Source: an uncultured Bryobacterales bacterium
GTDB taxonomy: Bacteria > Acidobacteriota > Terriglobia > Bryobacterales > UBA6623
Direction: 5' to 3'
Assembly: GCA_951813605.1 (NCBI GenBank)
Contig: OX638379.1
Span: 940,471-1,004,470 of the forward strand
Length of the DNA stretch: 64,000 bases
Shown: positions 48,050 to 57,555 of the stretch, piece after piece
Layout of the letters: each line of letters starts with the position of its first letter
How positions within the stretch are numbered: position 1 is the first letter of the stretch
Program-made: the position numbers and the translations under genes
Notes under the pieces: generated by a model
Databases searched by the model: none
Seen by the model: only the letters and a program-made list of their open reading frames with translations
What the model was told of the DNA's origin: nothing

Positions 48050-49420
48050 TCATGTCGGCCGGACTAGCGGAAACGTGTCATTGGTTTCGGCGGCCCAATC
48101 GGAAGTAAGTCTCCGATGCTCGTTGAGTGTCGACAGGTGGGCCGGATCCGCGGCGAGGTTGTTGGTCTCGCCCGGGTCCACTTCGAGATCGAAGAGTTGT
48201 TCGCGTCCGCTACCTGTGTTGTAGACGATGTACTTGTAACGCTTTGTACGAAGCATGCGTCCGGAGACGCCATCGTCGCGACCGCGTCCGAAAGTGGTTT
48301 CCGAGACGACGTACCGGCGACTCGAGCCGGCGGAGGAGCCTCGAGCGAGGGGTTCCAGCGACTGGCCGCGGACGGGTCCCGCCGGACCTTCGAGTCCGGC
48401 GGCTCCCAGGATCGTGGGCATAAGGTCAATGCCCGTGGAAACCAAGGCGTCAGACGTGGTGCCGGGCCTCGAAGAGAGCGGATGGGCAATCAAGAGTGGG
48501 ACCCGCACCGCCTGTTCGTAGAGCACCTGCTTCTGGTTCCAGTGGTGGCTGCCGACGCCTTCGCCGTGATCGCTGGTCAAAATGATGATCGTGTTGCTGT
48601 CCTGGCCGGAATCGCGGAGGGCGTCAAGCACCTTGGCGATTTCGTGATCGGCTTTTTCGACTAGACGATAGTACCCCCAGAGGTACTGTCTCCATTCCAG
48701 GTCGCTCCATTTGTCGGTCGGGTAGTGAAAGTCGCGATTCTTGGCTTGAATCATGCGGATTGCGGTCGGCTCGCTCTCGGGGATGGCGAAATTTCCGGGC
48801 AGCGCCGGAAGCTCGCCGGGGTCCTCGGGCGTCGGCGGGATCGGGCCCTGCGGGAGGTCCTGTCGACGGGCAAGCTGGCAGACATCGTGCGGGTTCCGGA
48901 AGGAAGTGGTGAGAAAGAACGGTCTGTCAGGCGAGGCATTGAGGAAATCAACTGCGTTTTGCGCGGTGTCGCTATCGCCGTGCGTATCGGCGGCTGTAGT
49001 GTAGCCGGCCTCCTCTAGCGAAGTGCCGACGTGCCACTTTCCGAAATAGGCCGTGTCATAGCCGCCTGATTCCATTAGCTTGCCGAGCATGGGGTACGCG
49101 CCATTCAGCTTTGTGCCGTTGGTCGGAGTCCCGATCTCGTGCGGATAGCGACCGGTTTGAATGCTGGAACGGCAAGGCAGGCAAAGCGGCTGTGTGACGT
49201 AGCTGCGCGTGAAGCGGACGCCGCGGGCGGCGATCCAATCCATCGCAGGCGTCTTGACATGCGGGTTGCCCGTGCAACTCATGGCCTCGTCGGTCTGCTG
49301 ATCGGTCATCACCAGCAGCACGTTCGGACGCTTTGCGAAAGAGCTCTGCGAGCAGCCGAGCAGCGCCATCCCAGCAAGTCCGGACCGCTGGAAGAAGGCG
49401 CGTCTGTCCACGATGCTCAT
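48050..49420 (-). CDS. Type-I sulfatase, C-L-P-C-R, Tat lipoprotein
   Basis: 456 residues from ATG 49420 with GAGG 6 nt upstream. Twin-arginine signal with lipobox (VDRRAFFQRS ... ALLGC23). Metal-site VMTDQQTDE; formylglycine motif CLPCRSSIQTGRYP (Cys80); GKWHVGTS; LTSDHGEGVGSHHWNQK. The TDQQ and HWNQK spellings recall choline-sulfatase or mucin/heparan-type sulfatases. Lies 40 nt behind the sulfatase at 49461-51185 in the same direction, so the two form an operon. A longer start would overlap that gene. Confidence 0.92.
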   Translation of the reverse strand: MSIVDRRAFFQRSGLAGMALLGCSQSSFAKRPNVLLVMTDQQTDEAMSCTGNPHVKTPAMDWIAARGVRFTRSYVTQPLCLPCRSSIQTGRYPHEIGTPTNGTKLNGAYPMLGKLMESGGYDTAYFGKWHVGTSLEEAGYTTAADTHGDSDTAQNAVDFLNASPDRPFFLTTSFRNPHDVCQLARRQDLPQGPIPPTPEDPGELPALPGNFAIPESEPTAIRMIQAKNRDFHYPTDKWSDLEWRQYLWGYYRLVEKADHEIAKVLDALRDSGQDSNTIIILTSDHGEGVGSHHWNQKQVLYEQAVRVPLLIAHPLSSRPGTTSDALVSTGIDLMPTILGAAGLEGPAGPVRGQSLEPLARGSSAGSSRRYVVSETTFGRGRDDGVSGRMLRTKRYKYIVYNTGSGREQLFDLEVDPGETNNLAADPAHLSTLNEHRRLTSDWAAETNDTFPLVRPT

Positions 49421-49460
49421 GTTGACCTCGGCTTCGCCTCGATCCGACCGAATTTCATCA

Positions 49461-51185
49461 TCATTGCCGGCGGACGTCAACGAATGAGGCGCCTCTGACG
49501 ACGCCGCTGTATTGAACCATTGTCTCCAGACGTGCCGGGCCCGCCTCGATCTCTACCGCTTGGAACTCGCACGAATCCTCTCCCGCCGCGACCGACTGCG
49601 AGACGGCGACGCTCCCCACTGTCAACGTGGCTTCCGCTGCGGCCGGCAAGGGTTTTGCAAACCGCAAGGTGAAGTCGTAGCGACCGCCTTCCTCGATCAC
49701 GACCGGCCAGTAGCCTAATGCGTCCTCGTGCGCGCGGTCATCATTGTCCCCGCGCCAGTCGAAGCGAGAGAGGGTCGCCATGGGCTCGTCAGGCGAGCCT
49801 AGGTGAATCCGCCCAGGCGCAAACCCCCGCGTCGACGAAACGTCACGGAACCAGTCCTCGTAGCCCCTTCGCATGTCCGCGACTATCTCCGGATGCTCCT
49901 CGGCGAGGTCGTTCGTCTCGCCAGGATCGACCGACATGTCGTACAGCTCGAACTTCGCCCCTTCGGGCATCGGGTCGGTCGCCTTGCCGAGTGGCTGCAC
50001 GATCTTCCAGCGCTGGCTGCGAGCCGAAGCGTTGCGGTTTAGCTGCGGTCTATCGCCGCGGTGGTTCTGCAGGTAGATCGTCCGATCCGGCCAATCGTCG
50101 GGTGATGTTTCGCCCGAGAGCAATGGCCAAAGACTCACTCCGTCGAATCGCGGGGATGCAGTGTCGACCTCCGAGGCATCAAGCAGCGTCGGCACGACAT
50201 CGATGTGTGCGGCAATGCGGTCAATCTTTCGACCGGCCTCGACGCGTCCTGGCCAGCGGAACAGGAACGGCACTCTCGTGCCGCCGTCATACGCACTGCC
50301 CTTGCGCTCCTTCAGGCCGGCCGTAAACGTCTGCTGGGTGGGGCCGTTGTCGGTCAAGAAGATGACGATTGTCGTGCCCGCTAGACCAAGTTGATCCAGT
50401 TGGTTGAGCAGTCGGTCTAGGTTTTCGTCGAACTGCGTGATCATGCCGTAGACCCTGGCCGTTCTCTCCGGAAGACCCATCTCGCGGTACACCTCGATGT
50501 ACTCTTCGTCAACGTCAAACGGCGAGTGGGGTACGTTCGTCGCCAAGTAGCCGAAAAAAGGCCGCTCGCGGTTTTGCTCAATGAAATCGATCAAGGCGTC
50601 GGTAAAGATGTCGGTGCAGTAGCCCCTGTAGGCTTCGGATGCGCCATTGTGCTCGAGGACGGGGTCCCAGTAGCGGTTTCCGGGCGGACCCGCGGGCTGG
50701 CCGAGTCCGCCACCGCGGTGAACCAGAGCTTCTTGGAAACCTTGGTCCGTCGCACGCAACGGGTAGTTGTCACCCAGATGCCACTTGCCGAAGATCCCTG
50801 TCACGTAACCTTCGGTCGCGAGCAACTCGGCCAGAGTTTCGGCCTCCGGGGCCATTAGTGTCCGGCCTAGGTAGGTATCGACCACGCCGGAGCGGTAGCC
50901 ATGACGCCCCGTCAGCAACGCGGCGCGAGTGGGCGCGCACTTGGGCTCGACATAGAATTGCGTGAACTCCGTGCTCTCCGCGGCTAGGCGGTCGAGCGTC
51001 GGCGTTCTGATATACGGATTGCCGTGGAATCCGACCTGAGCCCATCCTTGATCGTCGGTCATGATCAGGATGATGTTTGGCTTGGATGGCTCCGGCCCCT
51101 TAGTGATTTCGACTAGCCCCAGTGCCAGCAGAGCAATTGCTGCAAGGGTCAGCAGGGCCGAGCTGGCGAAACTTCGCTTCTCCAT
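49461..51185 (-). CDS. Type-I sulfatase with extra C-terminal beta domain, C-A-P-T-R
   Basis: 574 residues, about 100 longer than its neighbours. An uncleaved or Sec signal segment (ALLTLAAIALLALGLVEI). Metal-site IIMTDDQGWAQ; formylglycine motif CAPTRAALLTGRHG (Cys83); GKWHLG; FLTDNGPTQQTFTAGLKERKGSAYDGG. After the normal sulfatase end, residues about 460-574 form a beta-rich module (GGRYDFTLRFAKPLP, ATLTVGSVAVSQSV) that looks like a carbohydrate-binding jelly roll. TAGACT ends 10 nt before the ATG. First gene of a two-sulfatase operon. Confidence 0.93.
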   Translation of the reverse strand: MEKRSFASSALLTLAAIALLALGLVEITKGPEPSKPNIILIMTDDQGWAQVGFHGNPYIRTPTLDRLAAESTEFTQFYVEPKCAPTRAALLTGRHGYRSGVVDTYLGRTLMAPEAETLAELLATEGYVTGIFGKWHLGDNYPLRATDQGFQEALVHRGGGLGQPAGPPGNRYWDPVLEHNGASEAYRGYCTDIFTDALIDFIEQNRERPFFGYLATNVPHSPFDVDEEYIEVYREMGLPERTARVYGMITQFDENLDRLLNQLDQLGLAGTTIVIFLTDNGPTQQTFTAGLKERKGSAYDGGTRVPFLFRWPGRVEAGRKIDRIAAHIDVVPTLLDASEVDTASPRFDGVSLWPLLSGETSPDDWPDRTIYLQNHRGDRPQLNRNASARSQRWKIVQPLGKATDPMPEGAKFELYDMSVDPGETNDLAEEHPEIVADMRRGYEDWFRDVSSTRGFAPGRIHLGSPDEPMATLSRFDWRGDNDDRAHEDALGYWPVVIEEGGRYDFTLRFAKPLPAAAEATLTVGSVAVSQSVAAGEDSCEFQAVEIEAGPARLETMVQYSGVVRGASFVDVRRQ

Positions 51186-51538
51186 CGCTGCTGGGAGTCT
51201 AGCTCATTCCAGTGCTTGCGATCTCGGCTCGGGGCTGCAGTGCCGGTTCCCACGGCATCTCGCCGGGCTCAGCCCGAATTGTTCGAACTGCGCTTCTACA
51301 CGCTGTGTTGCGCCAGGTCTATGAGACGTACCTTGCCGGCCGCGATCCTACGCTCACTGCCGATCTTCCACCTCACTGCTTAGGCCAAGTCCGCTGCCGC
51401 ACCCTGAACCGGTCAGTGCTCTTCGCCCTCGCACAAGGAGCAATCGCGATGACATTTGCGAACTGCGGGCTTTTCTAGGTCAGTGGCCCCGGTCCCGCCG
51501 CACTCCTCTTGCCCGAGATCGTGAGCTAGGCGCCCGAA
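51186..51538. other. Intergenic interval, 353 bp
   Basis: Between the sulfatase start at 51185 and the stop of the repeat protein. No gene or clear hairpin; contains the TAGACT hexamer at 51196-51201. Confidence 0.5.
51196..51201 (-). promoter_or_regulatory. -10-like hexamer TAGACT, leaderless-type start
   Basis: On the minus strand TAGACT ends 10 nt before the sulfatase ATG at 51185. Confidence 0.4.
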
Positions 51539-52417
51539 CTAGCGCGGCAGATGCGCCCGATCAAGAATCGAAGCTGTCTTGCGCAGGGCTCGTTCGATGC
51601 GGTCGAGGTGAAGCGCTCGCACTCGCTGGGAGGTTTGCCTTGCGACAGGGTTTCGGTCCTCGATGTTTGGCTTTGCGACAAATCGATTATTCGCCGCCTG
51701 GCTTTGCAAAATCGCCTCTACTGCTCGGCGATCGGCGGCGGCCTGACGTCTCTTGATCCGTTCGATTTCCAACCGATCCCGGGCTGCCTGCTCCCTCGCG
51801 ATTCTTGCCGACACGCGGCGGTTAATCTCCGTCTGTTCCCGGACAATCCTCTCGACTGTTCGTTCGCTGGCTTCTTCCTGTTGCCTTGCGATCCGTTCGG
51901 CCGCAACGCGGTCCCGAGAGATCTGCTCGCTAGCGATGCGCTCGGCGGCGCTTGCGTCGGCTGATGCCTGCGCCCTTGCAATTCGCTCCGCGCTTGCTTG
52001 CGCTCGCGCGGCCTGCGTTCTTCTACCTCGAGCTGCGTGGTTCGGGGCCGCTCCGCGGGCCGAGTCGGCGATTCCCCTCTGGCGCGCTTTGTCGTCCGCT
52101 ACATATGCATCGACTTCCCGTAAGCTGTCCTCCGCCGGATGTCCATCGAACGCAGCCAGGGCTGGCTCACACCCGCTTGCATAAGCGGCAATACGGGAAG
52201 TGTAACGATGCCGAACGACGCAGCGCACCCGAAAGCCAACCAGCGAGAGAAGAGCCTGCGGGCACTCGGCTCTCCCTTGCTCGGGAGTGGCGGTTTCTGG
52301 GAGAGTCGGCGCGGAACCGATTTCCGGGAAGGCGAGACTGCAGGATTCCCGCGCCCCGCCTGCTAGTCCGAAGGCGGCTCCCATGACGACGATATGGCGG
52401 ATTGTACGAAGAAGCAT
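51539..52417 (-). CDS. Secreted protein with 15-residue tandem repeats, predicted coiled coil
   Basis: 292 residues. Start ATG 52417 has GGGAG 7 nt upstream. Signal peptide (IVVMGAAFGLAGGA), then a Cys-containing region (residues 26-83 with Cys at 26, 52, 66 and 83). Residues 144-248 are seven uninterrupted repeats of exactly 15 residues, consensus E-R-I-A-R-x-Q-x-x-x-x-R-x-x-x; residues 129-143 look like an eighth, decayed copy. Repeat DNA has diverged, so this is not a recent microsatellite. A 15/4 periodicity gives right-handed coiled coils, as described for the YadA stalk. A basic helix closes the chain. Function unknown: stalk, spacer or envelope-spanning rod are possible. No neighbour suggests a partner. 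Confidence 0.75.
   Translation of the reverse strand: MLLRTIRHIVVMGAAFGLAGGARESCSLAFPEIGSAPTLPETATPEQGRAECPQALLSLVGFRVRCVVRHRYTSRIAAYASGCEPALAAFDGHPAEDSLREVDAYVADDKARQRGIADSARGAAPNHAARGRRTQAARAQASAERIARAQASADASAAERIASEQISRDRVAAERIARQQEEASERTVERIVREQTEINRRVSARIAREQAARDRLEIERIKRRQAAADRRAVEAILQSQAANNRFVAKPNIEDRNPVARQTSQRVRALHLDRIERALRKTASILDRAHLPR
51674..51988 (-). repeat. Seven in-frame 45-bp coding repeats
   Basis: Encodes the 15-residue repeats of the coiled-coil protein. Units begin at residues 144, 159, 174, 189, 204, 219 and 234. Conserved positions: Arg2 and Ile3 in the first six units, Gln7 in all seven; the seventh unit is the most altered (EAILQSQ). Confidence 0.85.
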
Positions 52418-52916
52418 GATGAAACTCCCAAATCGAACTGAAGCAGCGTGATTACTTAGACGGCTCAGTTATCAATCTAGTTACAATATTCACACATTAA
52501 CTAATTTACCTAGTGGTGTCGGGTCAAGATCTGATTCTCAGCGCATAACATGTGTCTTGACTGTATTTTGCGAGCGGATTCTGGTGATATCGATTTGCGA
52601 GTTCCGGCTGGGATCAATCCCTGACCTCCGGGCCTCGCGGTTAGTGGGACCCAGTCGAAGTCGAGTGGTTTGCAGCGGCGCGTCAATTGAGACAAGATCA
52701 CATTCCTGGCCTGATTGCGACGCACTCGCGACATCTCATGCCTACGGGTTTTCGCGAACTGCATCGGGACTGGGCGAGCAGGCGTTTGATCAGTAGGCCG
52801 CAATGAATGGCGAAACGCCCCGGGACCGATCTCCTCGGTCAATGGACCGGGGAAGTTCGCTCTGCAGCGGCCGTTTAACGCCAAGGCCGCCGTCTGGCCT
52901 ATAGACTGAAACCGAA
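52418..52916. other. Intergenic interval between divergent genes, 0.5 kb
   Basis: Contains an A+T-rich stretch at about 52450-52515 upstream of the repeat protein and the TAGACT hexamer before the TPR-like gene. No gene recognised. Confidence 0.5.
52902..52907 (+). promoter_or_regulatory. -10-like hexamer TAGACT, leaderless-type start
   Basis: TAGACT (overlapping TATAGA) ends 9 nt before the TTG start at 52917. Confidence 0.4.
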
Positions 52917-53969
52917 TTGACACATCCCTTGTCCAAGATCACTGTTGTACTTGGCTGCTTGCTCGTATGCGGGCAAGCGTTCGGCGACGATACAACGTCC
53001 CAGTTCAGGGCCGGGTCCAAGCTGGCTCAAGAAAAGGTGGTGCTCCTAGAAGAGCAGCTGCAGCGAGACACTCAGAATCTGGCGGTCCGTTGCCAACTTC
53101 TCGGGTACTATGCCGCGTCTGCGCGGCGCCGGGACCGAGCGGCTCGGGATCAGAAGAATAAGCACATTCTATGGCTCATTAGAAACATGCCCGAAGCCAA
53201 TGTGATCCATGACAGGCGCCTAATAATTCCCAGCTACGACAGCCCTGAAGACTATGTGGATGGTAAACGCGCATGGCTGGCGCATATCGAAAAGGAGCCG
53301 AAGAATCTGACGCTGCTGGAGAACGCGGCTAGTTTCCTGTCGCTTGGTGACCGGGAAACCGCTCTCGACTTGCTTCGCCGGGCTCAGTCGCTAGACCTCT
53401 CCAATCCAAAGTGGGCGATGAAGCTTGGAGGGATGCTATTGCGCAAGGCTCGCGGCTATCGCGGTGAGACAGACCCGCTTGTCGCACGTCTGGCGTTGGT
53501 GCAGCTAGAACGAGCGAATGACCGTCCGGGCAGGGATGGGTGGAATGGATATCTCCTGGAGAGCCTTGCCAAGGCGGCTTTGGCCGCCGAGGATCACGAC
53601 AAGGCCCGCAAGTATGCGGGGCTGATGTTGAATGGGAACAGCCCTAGGGAGGTGACTGGAGATCACATCCACCATGGCCACCTTACGCTCGGTAGAGTCG
53701 CGCTGGCTGAGGGTGATGTCGCGCAAGCCAAGAATCGACTACTCATGGCTGGTAAGTCACCGGGGTCGCGCAAGCTGGGCTTCGCCGGCCCGAACATGGC
53801 GCTCGCCAAGGAGTTGCTCGAACGAGGCCACAGGAAGATAGTGCTCAAGTACTTCAAGTCTTGCGCAAAGCTCTGGACCGCGGATCGCGGCAAGGCGAAG
53901 TTGGACGAGTGGTCTGCGCTGGTTGCGGCTGGCAGGATCCCAGATTTCGGAGCGAATCTTGCCTACTGA
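52917..53969 (+). CDS. Secreted TPR-like repeat protein
   Basis: 350 residues from a TTG at 52917; no ATG or GTG lies between it and the signal peptide (ITVVLGCLLVCGQAFG). The body is helical with tetratricopeptide-like pairs: EEQLQRDTQNLAVRCQLLGYY, EPKNLTLLENAASFLSLGDRETALDLLRRAQ, ESLAKAALAAEDHDKARKYAG, LGRVALAEGDVAQAKNRLLMAG. Such domains bind proteins. The C-terminal ALAKELLERGHRKIVLKYF region resembles the tail of other acidobacterial TPR proteins, as far as I can judge. Stands alone. Confidence 0.8.
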   Translation: MTHPLSKITVVLGCLLVCGQAFGDDTTSQFRAGSKLAQEKVVLLEEQLQRDTQNLAVRCQLLGYYAASARRRDRAARDQKNKHILWLIRNMPEANVIHDRRLIIPSYDSPEDYVDGKRAWLAHIEKEPKNLTLLENAASFLSLGDRETALDLLRRAQSLDLSNPKWAMKLGGMLLRKARGYRGETDPLVARLALVQLERANDRPGRDGWNGYLLESLAKAALAAEDHDKARKYAGLMLNGNSPREVTGDHIHHGHLTLGRVALAEGDVAQAKNRLLMAGKSPGSRKLGFAGPNMALAKELLERGHRKIVLKYFKSCAKLWTADRGKAKLDEWSALVAAGRIPDFGANLAY

Positions 53970-54461: not shown

Positions 54462-55886
54462 TCACATTCCTCTTACGTAGGGGCCTCCGACGCTGTCACG
54501 GAGATGGTTGCAGCGGGCTCGCATCGACTCGAGGACGGCCGCGTGCATTGGATCACCGGCAAGATTCGTAACCTCGTGCGGATCGGCCTCTAAGTCGAAT
54601 AGCTGTTCGTAGACTGGGTTCCGCTCGAAATAACGCACGTACTTGAATCGTTCCGCCCGCACTCCCTCGCTCTTTGGTATCGTCTCGCGTTCGTACAGGT
54701 GCTCGTAAAAGAAGTCCTGTCGCCAATCGACGCTTTCGCCTCGCAGCAGGGGCGCAAGGCTCCTTCCGCGCATCTCGGACGGAACCTCGACGCCAGCAAG
54801 GTCAAGCATGGTGACTGGGCAGTCGAAGCTGAGCGCCATCTCCTCGACGGCTGCACCGTGTCGAGACCTGTCGAGACGCGGGTCCGCAATGATCAACGGC
54901 TTGCGGATCGAGCCTTCGTACATCAGCCAAATCCCGGTGAGACCATGCTCGCCGATCATGATGCCGTTGTCGCCGGTGAAGATCACCACCGTGTTTTCGT
55001 CGAGCCCCTGGCGTTCCAGCTCCCCGACGATCCGGCCGACCTGCTCGTCCACGCCCGTGATTAGCCGGTACATGCCTTTCATCATTCGCTGGTACTTCTC
55101 CGGGTTGTCGAATCGCCGGAACCAGCGCTGCCTGCTCATCGAGACTTGTATGAATCCCGGCAAGCGGTGGAAATAGCTGTCGTCTGGAACGGGCGGCGGT
55201 GGAATGACTGCGTTCTCGTAGAGATCCTCGTAGCGACGATCGAATATGTATTGCTCGATATTGTCGTCCTCGGGATGCGGGGCGCTGAAGCTAACGGAGA
55301 GACAGAACGGCGCATTGGCTTCACTCGTCCGGATGAACTCGACGGCGTCGTCCCCATTGATTGTCGATAGGTGTTTGACGGTACCGTCTTGCGCTTCGCG
55401 GTAATAGGGGTTTCGGGTGGAACTCGCGATCCGGCGCCTGTAGAAGTCGAATATCCGTTCCGGGGCGCGACGGTCCACTTCGACGCCAAGCTTGCCCACG
55501 AATCCGGTCCGGTAACCGGCTCGCTTCAGCAGGGCAGGGTAGCTCCGGTCCATGCGCTGCAAGCTCATCGGCGGCATCGTGAAGGTGTAGCGGTGCTCCC
55601 TGCGGAACTCGCCGGTCAGGATGCTCGCGCGCGTCGCAGCACAGATCGACGTCGTGCAAAACGAATTCGAGAACCTCACGCCGCGCGCGGCCAGCTTGTC
55701 GATGTGGGGAGTCTGGATGATGTCGTTCCCTGCGCAGCCAAGCAGATCCCAGCGGTGGTTGTCCGTCATCAGAAAGACGATGTTCGGTGGGCGCGGATCG
55801 CTCTGGCCTCGGCTAACGGCTGAGGCGGTCAGCGCTCCTGTGGAGGCTGCCAAGAATCGACGGCGGTTGAATGAGGTGGACGGCAT
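54462..55886 (-). CDS. Sulfatase-fold enzyme with atypical C-A-A-T-R motif, Tat-exported
   Basis: 474 residues from ATG 55886, which opens a twin-arginine signal (FNRRRFLAAS). Close paralog of the protein at 20945-22378. The activation motif reads CAATRASILTG (Cys82): Ala replaces the usual Pro. The metal site reads MTDNHRWD where the paralog has VTDDQRWD, so the second Asp is Asn43. The GKWHLG block is GKLGVEVD. Anaerobic sulfatase-maturating enzymes are known to accept C-x-A-x-R, so the enzyme may still be active, perhaps through a different maturase than its neighbours. Third gene behind a diheme cytochrome and a PQQ dehydrogenase, 76 nt after the latter. Frame is open further upstream but only as a shadow of the PQQ gene. 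Confidence 0.9.
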   Translation of the reverse strand: MPSTSFNRRRFLAASTGALTASAVSRGQSDPRPPNIVFLMTDNHRWDLLGCAGNDIIQTPHIDKLAARGVRFSNSFCTTSICAATRASILTGEFRREHRYTFTMPPMSLQRMDRSYPALLKRAGYRTGFVGKLGVEVDRRAPERIFDFYRRRIASSTRNPYYREAQDGTVKHLSTINGDDAVEFIRTSEANAPFCLSVSFSAPHPEDDNIEQYIFDRRYEDLYENAVIPPPPVPDDSYFHRLPGFIQVSMSRQRWFRRFDNPEKYQRMMKGMYRLITGVDEQVGRIVGELERQGLDENTVVIFTGDNGIMIGEHGLTGIWLMYEGSIRKPLIIADPRLDRSRHGAAVEEMALSFDCPVTMLDLAGVEVPSEMRGRSLAPLLRGESVDWRQDFFYEHLYERETIPKSEGVRAERFKYVRYFERNPVYEQLFDLEADPHEVTNLAGDPMHAAVLESMRARCNHLRDSVGGPYVRGM

Positions 55887-55962
55887 GATGGGACGTGAAT
55901 CGCCTCCGCCGCAACGATAGCGCAACTGACCCCGCTTGCGGCCGCGACTTGGCCGACCGGCG

Positions 55963-57555
55963 CTAATCGTACAGGCCGAATGCGAAGACCCCGCTCTTCG
56001 TGGTGATTGCCACGTACTGGCGCCCGTCCGCCTCGAAGGTGACCGGTGAAGCCCGAATCGTGCCGCCGGTGTTGAAGTGCCACAAGACGTTTCCTGTCGT
56101 CGCGTCGGCGGCCATGAAGTTGCCGCCGCGGCTCCCGAAGAACACCAGGCCGCCGGCCGTCGACATTGCGCCGGCAAACATCACCTCGCGGTTTTCCACC
56201 CCGTGCAGGGGGATCTCCCAACGGATCTTGCCGTCGCTTATGTCGATTGCCCTCAGAAAGTTCGCCGCACCAGTCTCCAAGTGGTCGATGCTGTGGCCGG
56301 TTCGAAAGTACACCCCGCACGCGTCCCTGGCCATGACGTAAAGCAATCCCGTTCCCGGATGGAATGTGGGCGACTGCCAGTTTGTCCCGCCGTGGATGTC
56401 CGGGCAGGTGAGAGCGCCGGTGGGACTCGGTGTCGCTTCCGGCTTGCGGATCGGCCGGCCTTCGGGAGTCAGTCGGTCCAGCCAGGTTTGCTTGGCGAAG
56501 GACGTTCCGCGGAGGAACTTGCCGCTCTCGCGATCGAGTACGTAGAGGATGGCGTTGCGATTCGCATGGAACAGAAGCTTGCGCCGCTGGCCCTCCCACT
56601 CGGCGTCGACTAGCACCGGGGTCTGATTCGAGTCCCAGTCATGTTCGTCGTGAGGTGTGTACTGAAAGTGCCAGACCAGCTCGCCATCGTCAGGGCGCAA
56701 GGCCAGCAGCGACGCGGTGTAGAGGTTGTCGCCTTCGCGGTTCCGCCCGTCGAAATCCTTCGGGCCCGGGTTCCCTGTCGGCCAGTAGATCAGGTCCAGT
56801 TCAGGATCGTAGGTTCCGCTGGTCCAAGCCGTGCCGCCACCGGCCTTCCACGAGTCATTGTGTGGCCAAGTCTCCGAACCCGTTTCCCCTGGCGCGGGAA
56901 CGGTGTAGAAGCGCCATTCGCGCTTGCCAGTCTCCGCATTGAACGCGTCGAGATAGCCGCGCACCCGTCCCGTATCTCCTCCCCGAATGCCAATCAGCAC
57001 GCGGTTTTTCGCGACGATCGGCGAGCCGGTCGATCCAAAGCACGGCTGGTCCGCAGTAACGGCCGAGCGCCAGAGCATGGCACCGTTACGGCTGTCTAGC
57101 GCAACTATATGGCAGTCGGGCGTGGGCAGGTAGAGGCGGTTTCCAGAAAGGCCGAATCCGCGGCTGGAATTCGGATTCTGGCGTTCCGCGCCTCGCTCGA
57201 ATGGATAGTCGAATCGCCAGATGGAACGACCGGTGGTCGCGTCGATGGCGTACGCCCGCATCCCGCCGGCCGTAAGGTACATGATGCCGTCTCGGACAAT
57301 GGGCGTGGCTTCGCTGCGGGTCTGCTGCGGGCTGTACTGAAACATCCATTTGGGGACTAGCCGAGAAACATTCTCGCGATGGATTTGCCGTAGCGCGGAA
57401 TGGCGTCGCCCGGTGTTGTCACGGTCGTAGCTGAGCCAATTCGCGGGATTCCTGTAGCGCTCTTCCAGCGGTTGCGCCCTTGCAGAGGGTGCCAGTGCGA
57501 TGGCCCCAAGGACTGCCAAGCATGCTAGGGGGCGAAGCGTTCCGATCGCGGGCAT
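55963..57555 (-). CDS. PQQ-dependent dehydrogenase (quinoprotein)
   Basis: 530 residues from ATG 57555, which begins a signal peptide (LACLAVLGAIALAPSARA). An eight-bladed propeller with tryptophan-docking-type repeats (NAETGKREWRF, DRESGKFLRG, DATTGNVLWHF, DATTGRSIWRF). HDEHDWDSNQTP is the characteristic catalytic-Asp region and GGTNWQSPTFHP a PQQ-pocket block. The vicinal Cys-Cys of methanol dehydrogenases is not seen. These enzymes oxidise alcohols or sugars in the periplasm and pass electrons to cytochrome c, here surely the product of the gene 11 nt upstream. The frame is open far upstream, but that part is antisense-like shadow of the cytochrome gene. Confidence 0.92.
   Translation of the reverse strand: MPAIGTLRPLACLAVLGAIALAPSARAQPLEERYRNPANWLSYDRDNTGRRHSALRQIHRENVSRLVPKWMFQYSPQQTRSEATPIVRDGIMYLTAGGMRAYAIDATTGRSIWRFDYPFERGAERQNPNSSRGFGLSGNRLYLPTPDCHIVALDSRNGAMLWRSAVTADQPCFGSTGSPIVAKNRVLIGIRGGDTGRVRGYLDAFNAETGKREWRFYTVPAPGETGSETWPHNDSWKAGGGTAWTSGTYDPELDLIYWPTGNPGPKDFDGRNREGDNLYTASLLALRPDDGELVWHFQYTPHDEHDWDSNQTPVLVDAEWEGQRRKLLFHANRNAILYVLDRESGKFLRGTSFAKQTWLDRLTPEGRPIRKPEATPSPTGALTCPDIHGGTNWQSPTFHPGTGLLYVMARDACGVYFRTGHSIDHLETGAANFLRAIDISDGKIRWEIPLHGVENREVMFAGAMSTAGGLVFFGSRGGNFMAADATTGNVLWHFNTGGTIRASPVTFEADGRQYVAITTKSGVFAFGLYD

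Follow-up and report, generated by a model that had tools for sequence, protein, structure and literature searches.

A tandem array of 15-residue units in an orphan open reading frame of an uncultured Bryobacterales bacterium, predicted to form a long helical rod

The analyzed window, a stretch of 64,000 nucleotides from an uncultured Bryobacterales bacterium (phylum Acidobacteriota; contig OX638379.1, positions 940,471 to 1,004,470), contains on its minus strand an open reading frame (ORF) whose product carries seven consecutive repeats of 15 amino acids. The ORF and its parts are located in the window as follows.

51539..52417, minus: the whole ORF, 292 amino acids, with an ATG start
52355..52417, minus: residues 1-21 (MLLRTIRHIVVMGAAFGLAGG), a signal-peptide-like N-terminus recognized by sequence inspection (basic n-region and hydrophobic core)
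52016..52354, minus: residues 22-134, a low-confidence region with four Cys, running into a long predicted helix from residue 95 (AlphaFold2, codon usage)
51677..51991, minus: residues 143-247, the array of seven 15-residue (45-bp) units (self-identity, codon positions, AlphaFold2)
51554..51649, minus: residues 257-288, a predicted C-terminal basic helix past a short break at residues 248-256 (AlphaFold2)

The array was noticed in a preliminary description of this DNA, whose placement of seven indel-free 15-residue units at 51988..51674 on the minus strand (residues 144-248) is exact. Counted from Ala143, the seven consecutive units, again free of insertions and deletions, are AERIARAQASADASA, AERIASEQISRDRVA, AERIARQQEEASERT, VERIVREQTEINRRV, SARIAREQAARDRLE, IERIKRRQAAADRRA and VEAILQSQAANNRFV. 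Two unit positions, Ile4 and Gln8, are invariant (7/7 each); Glu2 and Arg3 are present in six of the seven units each, Arg6 and Arg13 in five each, and position 12 is occupied by Asp in four units, Asn in two and Ser in one. The previously given motif E-R-I-A-R-x-Q-x4-R-x3 is thus a consensus and not an exact string, as ERIARxQ occurs literally in only two of the seven units. The self-identity of the array is 0.415 at lag 15 and 0.363 at lag 30, compared with 0.29 as the best of lags 2-40 in 5,000 shuffles. No open frame of 100 or more codons in the window has a stronger periodicity, and the next strongest is that of the antisense of the same DNA. The array had also been called highly charged, which is only moderately so: D/E/K/R residues account for 39% of it, beside 23% Ala and 18% large hydrophobic residues, and the net charge is +5 per 105 residues, with Glu balancing Arg.

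The copies agree better at the first and second codon positions than at the third. Identity between copies is 0.55 at the first codon position, 0.56 at the second and 0.33 at the third, the codon pairs that differ between copies comprise 78 synonymous and 181 replacement pairs, and most comparisons show a saturated synonymous distance. Because the third positions are randomised, no DNA-level array was detected by Tandem Repeats Finder, even at the lowest threshold (score 30), and a recent DNA duplication was rejected on these same two observations. The ORF frame is the only one of the six that is stop-free across all seven units, and it has the highest amino acid identity among them (0.425, a value as high being obtained in 5 of 2,000 column shuffles). 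Its BLOSUM similarity between copies was reached by none of 2,000 column-wise DNA shuffles. The codon-position pattern and the frame tests together therefore establish that the array is old and maintained at the protein level. Codon-position variation alone cannot exclude an antisense reading, as the antisense frame shares the degenerate third positions and also beats the shuffles; this reading (plus frame, LAIRS-type units) was rejected for its stop inside the array and its lower amino acid identity.

The structure was modeled with AlphaFold2 from the single sequence, without an alignment. The model has one unbroken helix over residues 95-247 (block pLDDT 91-97 over residues 131-240), a break at residues 248-256 and a further helix at residues 257-288 (block pLDDT 73-87), whereas residues 1-100 are of low confidence (block pLDDT 39-61). 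As a prediction, the long helical rod is well supported. The protein begins with MLLRTIRHIVVMGAAFGLAGGA, which by eye resembles a signal peptide, and on this basis the product is probably exported. The mature chain is basic (pI 10.7), as is the C-terminal segment of residues 248-292 (net charge +6, pI 11.7).

Searches for relatives of the protein gave no match below E=0.4 in Pfam, NCBIfam, PHROGs and PDB sequences, which bears out the earlier remark that no family match was known, and for residues 22-134 no credible homologue was found. A repeat profile of 30 residues matched this ORF alone below E=0.1 in its own genome, and no genuine match emerged from 257 genomes belonging to the order or from 396 belonging to the phylum. 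Scans of viral, phage, plasmid and GTDB genomes with the protein returned nothing, nor did the DNA of the interval match plasmids. Genome matches obtained with the whole protein or with its N-terminal part were weak (best E 1e-3) and were rejected, many of them crossing stops. Of the two weak matches in the same genus, one (L003) falls in an OmpA-like coiled-coil protein and one (L004) lies antisense to a pentapeptide-repeat protein. In the latter case (L004 1438-2502, genome G004), the antisense frame mimics an Arg/Ala repeat protein that weakly matched the query, and therefore antisense frames of repeats can yield false matches. The repeat-profile matches in genomes G205 and G573 (E 1.3e-4 and 8.8e-6) are also attributed to chance, their frames being antisense to long genes, which we take to be spermidine-synthase-type membrane proteins. 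The gene is known from only one Acidobacteriota genome among those searched. Judged from its sequence it is an orphan, ordinary in kind: as a gene, it would add one to a common type, that of repeat-bearing envelope proteins with a restricted taxonomic range.

Our tentative explanation, to which we assign somewhat less than an even chance, is that the ORF is a real lineage-specific gene for an exported rod, with the rods most likely pairing, that acts as an envelope spacer or scaffold. Behind an export signal at the N-terminus and a segment that contains Cys and is poorly ordered, the chain would continue as a single straight helix some 150 residues long (about 23 nm, with a rise of 1.5 angstrom per residue) composed mostly of the seven units, and then through a short break into the basic helix. 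Salt bridges at i,i+4, arranged as a recurring Arg13-Glu2'-Arg6' ladder, would make the rod stiffer. At least two rods would most likely pair along a slowly right-winding stripe formed by Ile4, Gln8, Asp/Asn12 and Ala/Val1 (3-4-4-4 core positions in the 15/4 geometry). The paired rods would then serve the cell envelope as a spacer or scaffold, a role we infer from the apparent export signal and the rod.

In favour of this proposal are the self-identity at lag 15, the codon-position and frame results, the predicted helix, the opposite charges at i,i+4 and a peak of the hydrophobic moment whose stripe has the two invariant columns side by side. The analysis shows the repeat, its protein-level constraint, the predicted helix and the orphan status, while export, oligomerisation, handedness and the spacer role are inferred. 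Two sets of observations weigh against the proposal, one concerning the coil and the other the gene itself. If a coiled coil forms, a 15/4 repeat, with 3.75 residues per turn, would make it strongly right-handed (PMC4786415). The helical hydrophobic moment of the array is largest at 96-97 degrees per residue and almost nil at 100 degrees, as it must be, because any exact 15-mer on a helix gives 3.75 residues per turn. As a control for a hydrophobic seam, we permuted the 15 columns of the unit while keeping the repeat. The 3.75 component was matched in 31% (Kyte-Doolittle, KD) and 15% (Eisenberg) of the trials, and in 31% or 41% when large hydrophobic residues were counted without or with Ala. 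The 5-residue component (k=3) of the hydrophobic variance is larger than the 3.75 component, and the conserved columns are not clustered on any one face (P 0.78). The invariant columns Ile4 and Gln8 adjoin each other in the 3.75 stripe; in the 3-4-4-4 register that holds both, the layers are Ala/Val/Ile, Ile, Gln and Asp/Asn/Ser, so that two of the four presumed core layers are polar. Over the helix of residues 95-247, the mean KD value of the core scheme is 0.38 for 15/4, 0.05 for the heptad and -0.31 for the hendecad (permutation P 0.15-0.41).

The reading as a right-handed 15/4 coil in the preliminary description is partly supported: a non-heptad 15-residue helical repeat is upheld, and the coil itself, whose seam is matched in 15-41% of column permutations, is possible but not supported. 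The Ile that recurs every 15 residues (Ile3 there, Ile4 in our numbering) would supply a single strong layer about every 22 angstrom, and the rest of that register consists of Gln, Asp/Asn/Ser and Ala/Val.

The charge pattern bears on whether the rods associate at all. Charged pairs at i,i+4 within the array are opposite in 17 cases vs same in 5 (as extreme in 4 of 2,000 shuffles and in 162 of 5,000 column permutations, P about 0.03), with no excess at i,i+3 (6 opposite vs 8 same), and the E/R pairs at i,i+4 form the Arg13-Glu2'-Arg6' ladder. This enrichment also fits a monomeric spacer of the charged single alpha-helix (SAH) type, in which the same rod would be held by intrahelical E-R salt bridges with no oligomer core; the hydrophobic seam that does not exceed the column-permutation null and the prediction of the single chain as one unbroken helix agree with it as well. 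Even so, we regard a solitary helix as somewhat unlikely. The array resembles SAH (ER/K) domains in its i,i+4 Glu-Arg pairing and its long predicted solitary helix, but it has less charge (the 39% given above) and more Ala, Ile and Val, a strict 15-residue unit, and an invariant Ile and Gln that salt bridges leave unexplained. Known SAHs are E/R/K-rich without a hydrophobic seam, and designed helices that were Ala-substituted or Arg-rich tended to self-associate or aggregate (PMC5347031). Since the array is poorer in charge than SAHs and such designed helices self-associate, association of the rods is somewhat favoured over a monomer.

The second set of observations concerns whether the gene is live. 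No orthologue that would show selection between species was found in the genomes searched. Codon usage is weak, the whole ORF being only at the 13th percentile of the gene blocks in the window and its N-terminal third (the region of residues 22-134) at the 5th, and from 51186 to 52916 the frame-by-frame coding score stays around or below zero, which it does in neither of the neighbours. On the same strand at about 52110-52390 of the window, the frame one base on from the ORF contains a hydrophobic stretch (WLAFGCAASFGIVTLPVLPLMQAGV). This shifted frame holds two stops, and its codon usage is slightly above that of the N-terminal third of the ORF (0.014 vs -0.016), so the N-terminal region of the ORF is possibly not what is translated. 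These features, along with the lack of an orthologue within the genus, would suit a decayed or non-expressed frame, in which selection once acted on the array within a functional gene, possibly an acquired one, whose N-terminal part has since gone out of frame or out of use. We consider such decay unlikely, given that the array has neither a stop nor a frameshift, that 292 stop-free codons have a chance of about 2e-4 at the ORF base composition in one frame, and that full-length within-amino-acid codon usage exceeds every one of 2,000 draws from the background-codon null. In addition, the ATG is preceded by a Shine-Dalgarno-like GGGAG 7 nt upstream and an AT-rich leader. A scan of 51150-53000 for sigma-70-like promoters and terminators found none and is uninformative. 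Taken as a whole, this mixed sequence evidence makes a live gene likely; one that is weakly adapted, evolves fast or was acquired recently would fit it, and so would a gene starting to decay.

A more far-reaching version of the exported-rod proposal, which we hold to be quite improbable, is that the protein represents a new class of exported rods, with a 15/4 right-handed coil in which hydrophobic (Ile, Ala/Val) layers alternate with conserved polar (Gln, Asp/Asn) layers, unrelated to autotransporter stalks and belonging to one Acidobacteriota lineage. If true, such a polar-layered right-handed coil would be an unusual natural 15/4 geometry beyond the autotransporter and rotary-ATPase stalks, and useful for coiled-coil design and structure-prediction benchmarks. 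Rotary ATPase peripheral stalks are cytoplasmic heterodimers that are not known to contain exact tandem units. In composition they are the closest known system, ahead of YadA, as their Ala/Leu/Glu/Arg-rich E/G right-handed coiled coil shares with the ORF a long helix rich in Ala, Glu and Arg; however, they have no sequence or profile match to the ORF. In subunit G of the Thermus A-ATPase, hendecads pass into a quindecad repeat, and the right-handed coiling becomes tighter (PMC6131620).

The downstream neighbour of the repeat ORF is a sulfatase (49461-51185; PF00884, PF16347) that is 78% identical to one in a metagenome-assembled genome of an uncultured Bryobacterales bacterium (Acidobacteriota) and has orthologues with 77-80% identity in four same-genus genomes. 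Sulfatase regions of the window span 48050-51185 and 54462-56177. Each of 11 same-genus genomes contains 170-185 sulfatase-like matches and this genome about 180, numbers that suggest a lineage specialised on sulfated glycans. A polyanion-binding rod, rich in Arg and keeping sulfated glycans in reach of the exported sulfatases around it, would be in line with this setting and with the pI of the mature chain. It is nevertheless very doubtful: the net charge of the array itself is only slightly positive, the sulfatases in the genome are so numerous that their proximity says little, and the repeat ORF was not found in the 1.5 kb upstream of the four closest orthologues of the nearest sulfatase.

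The YadA stalk consists of ten 15-residue repeats, to which a beta-barrel anchor is added (PMC3539135). The parallel with YadA drawn earlier extends to the repeat length, with tandem 15-residue helical units (ten in YadA, seven here) that are presumably envelope-exposed in both, and to nothing else, since the ORF has no head, neck or beta-barrel anchor and no sequence match, and is Arg/Glu/Ala-rich with polar Gln and Asp/Asn in the would-be core register. We give practically no credence to a YadA-like trimeric autotransporter stalk, an identity ruled out by the missing anchor: neither a head nor the C-terminal membrane anchor of this type (four beta strands per chain) was matched in Pfam or NCBIfam up to E=10, and the model has no beta strand and a helical C-terminus.

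On the other side of the repeat ORF, the divergent neighbour at 52917-53969 on the plus strand encodes an apparently exported product that is tetratricopeptide-like by eye and has no Pfam match. Paralogues of this product (43-48% identity) are present in the same genome (G000), and in genome G004 they occur in tandem runs (C2:1027362-1032499 and C4:43648-50627).
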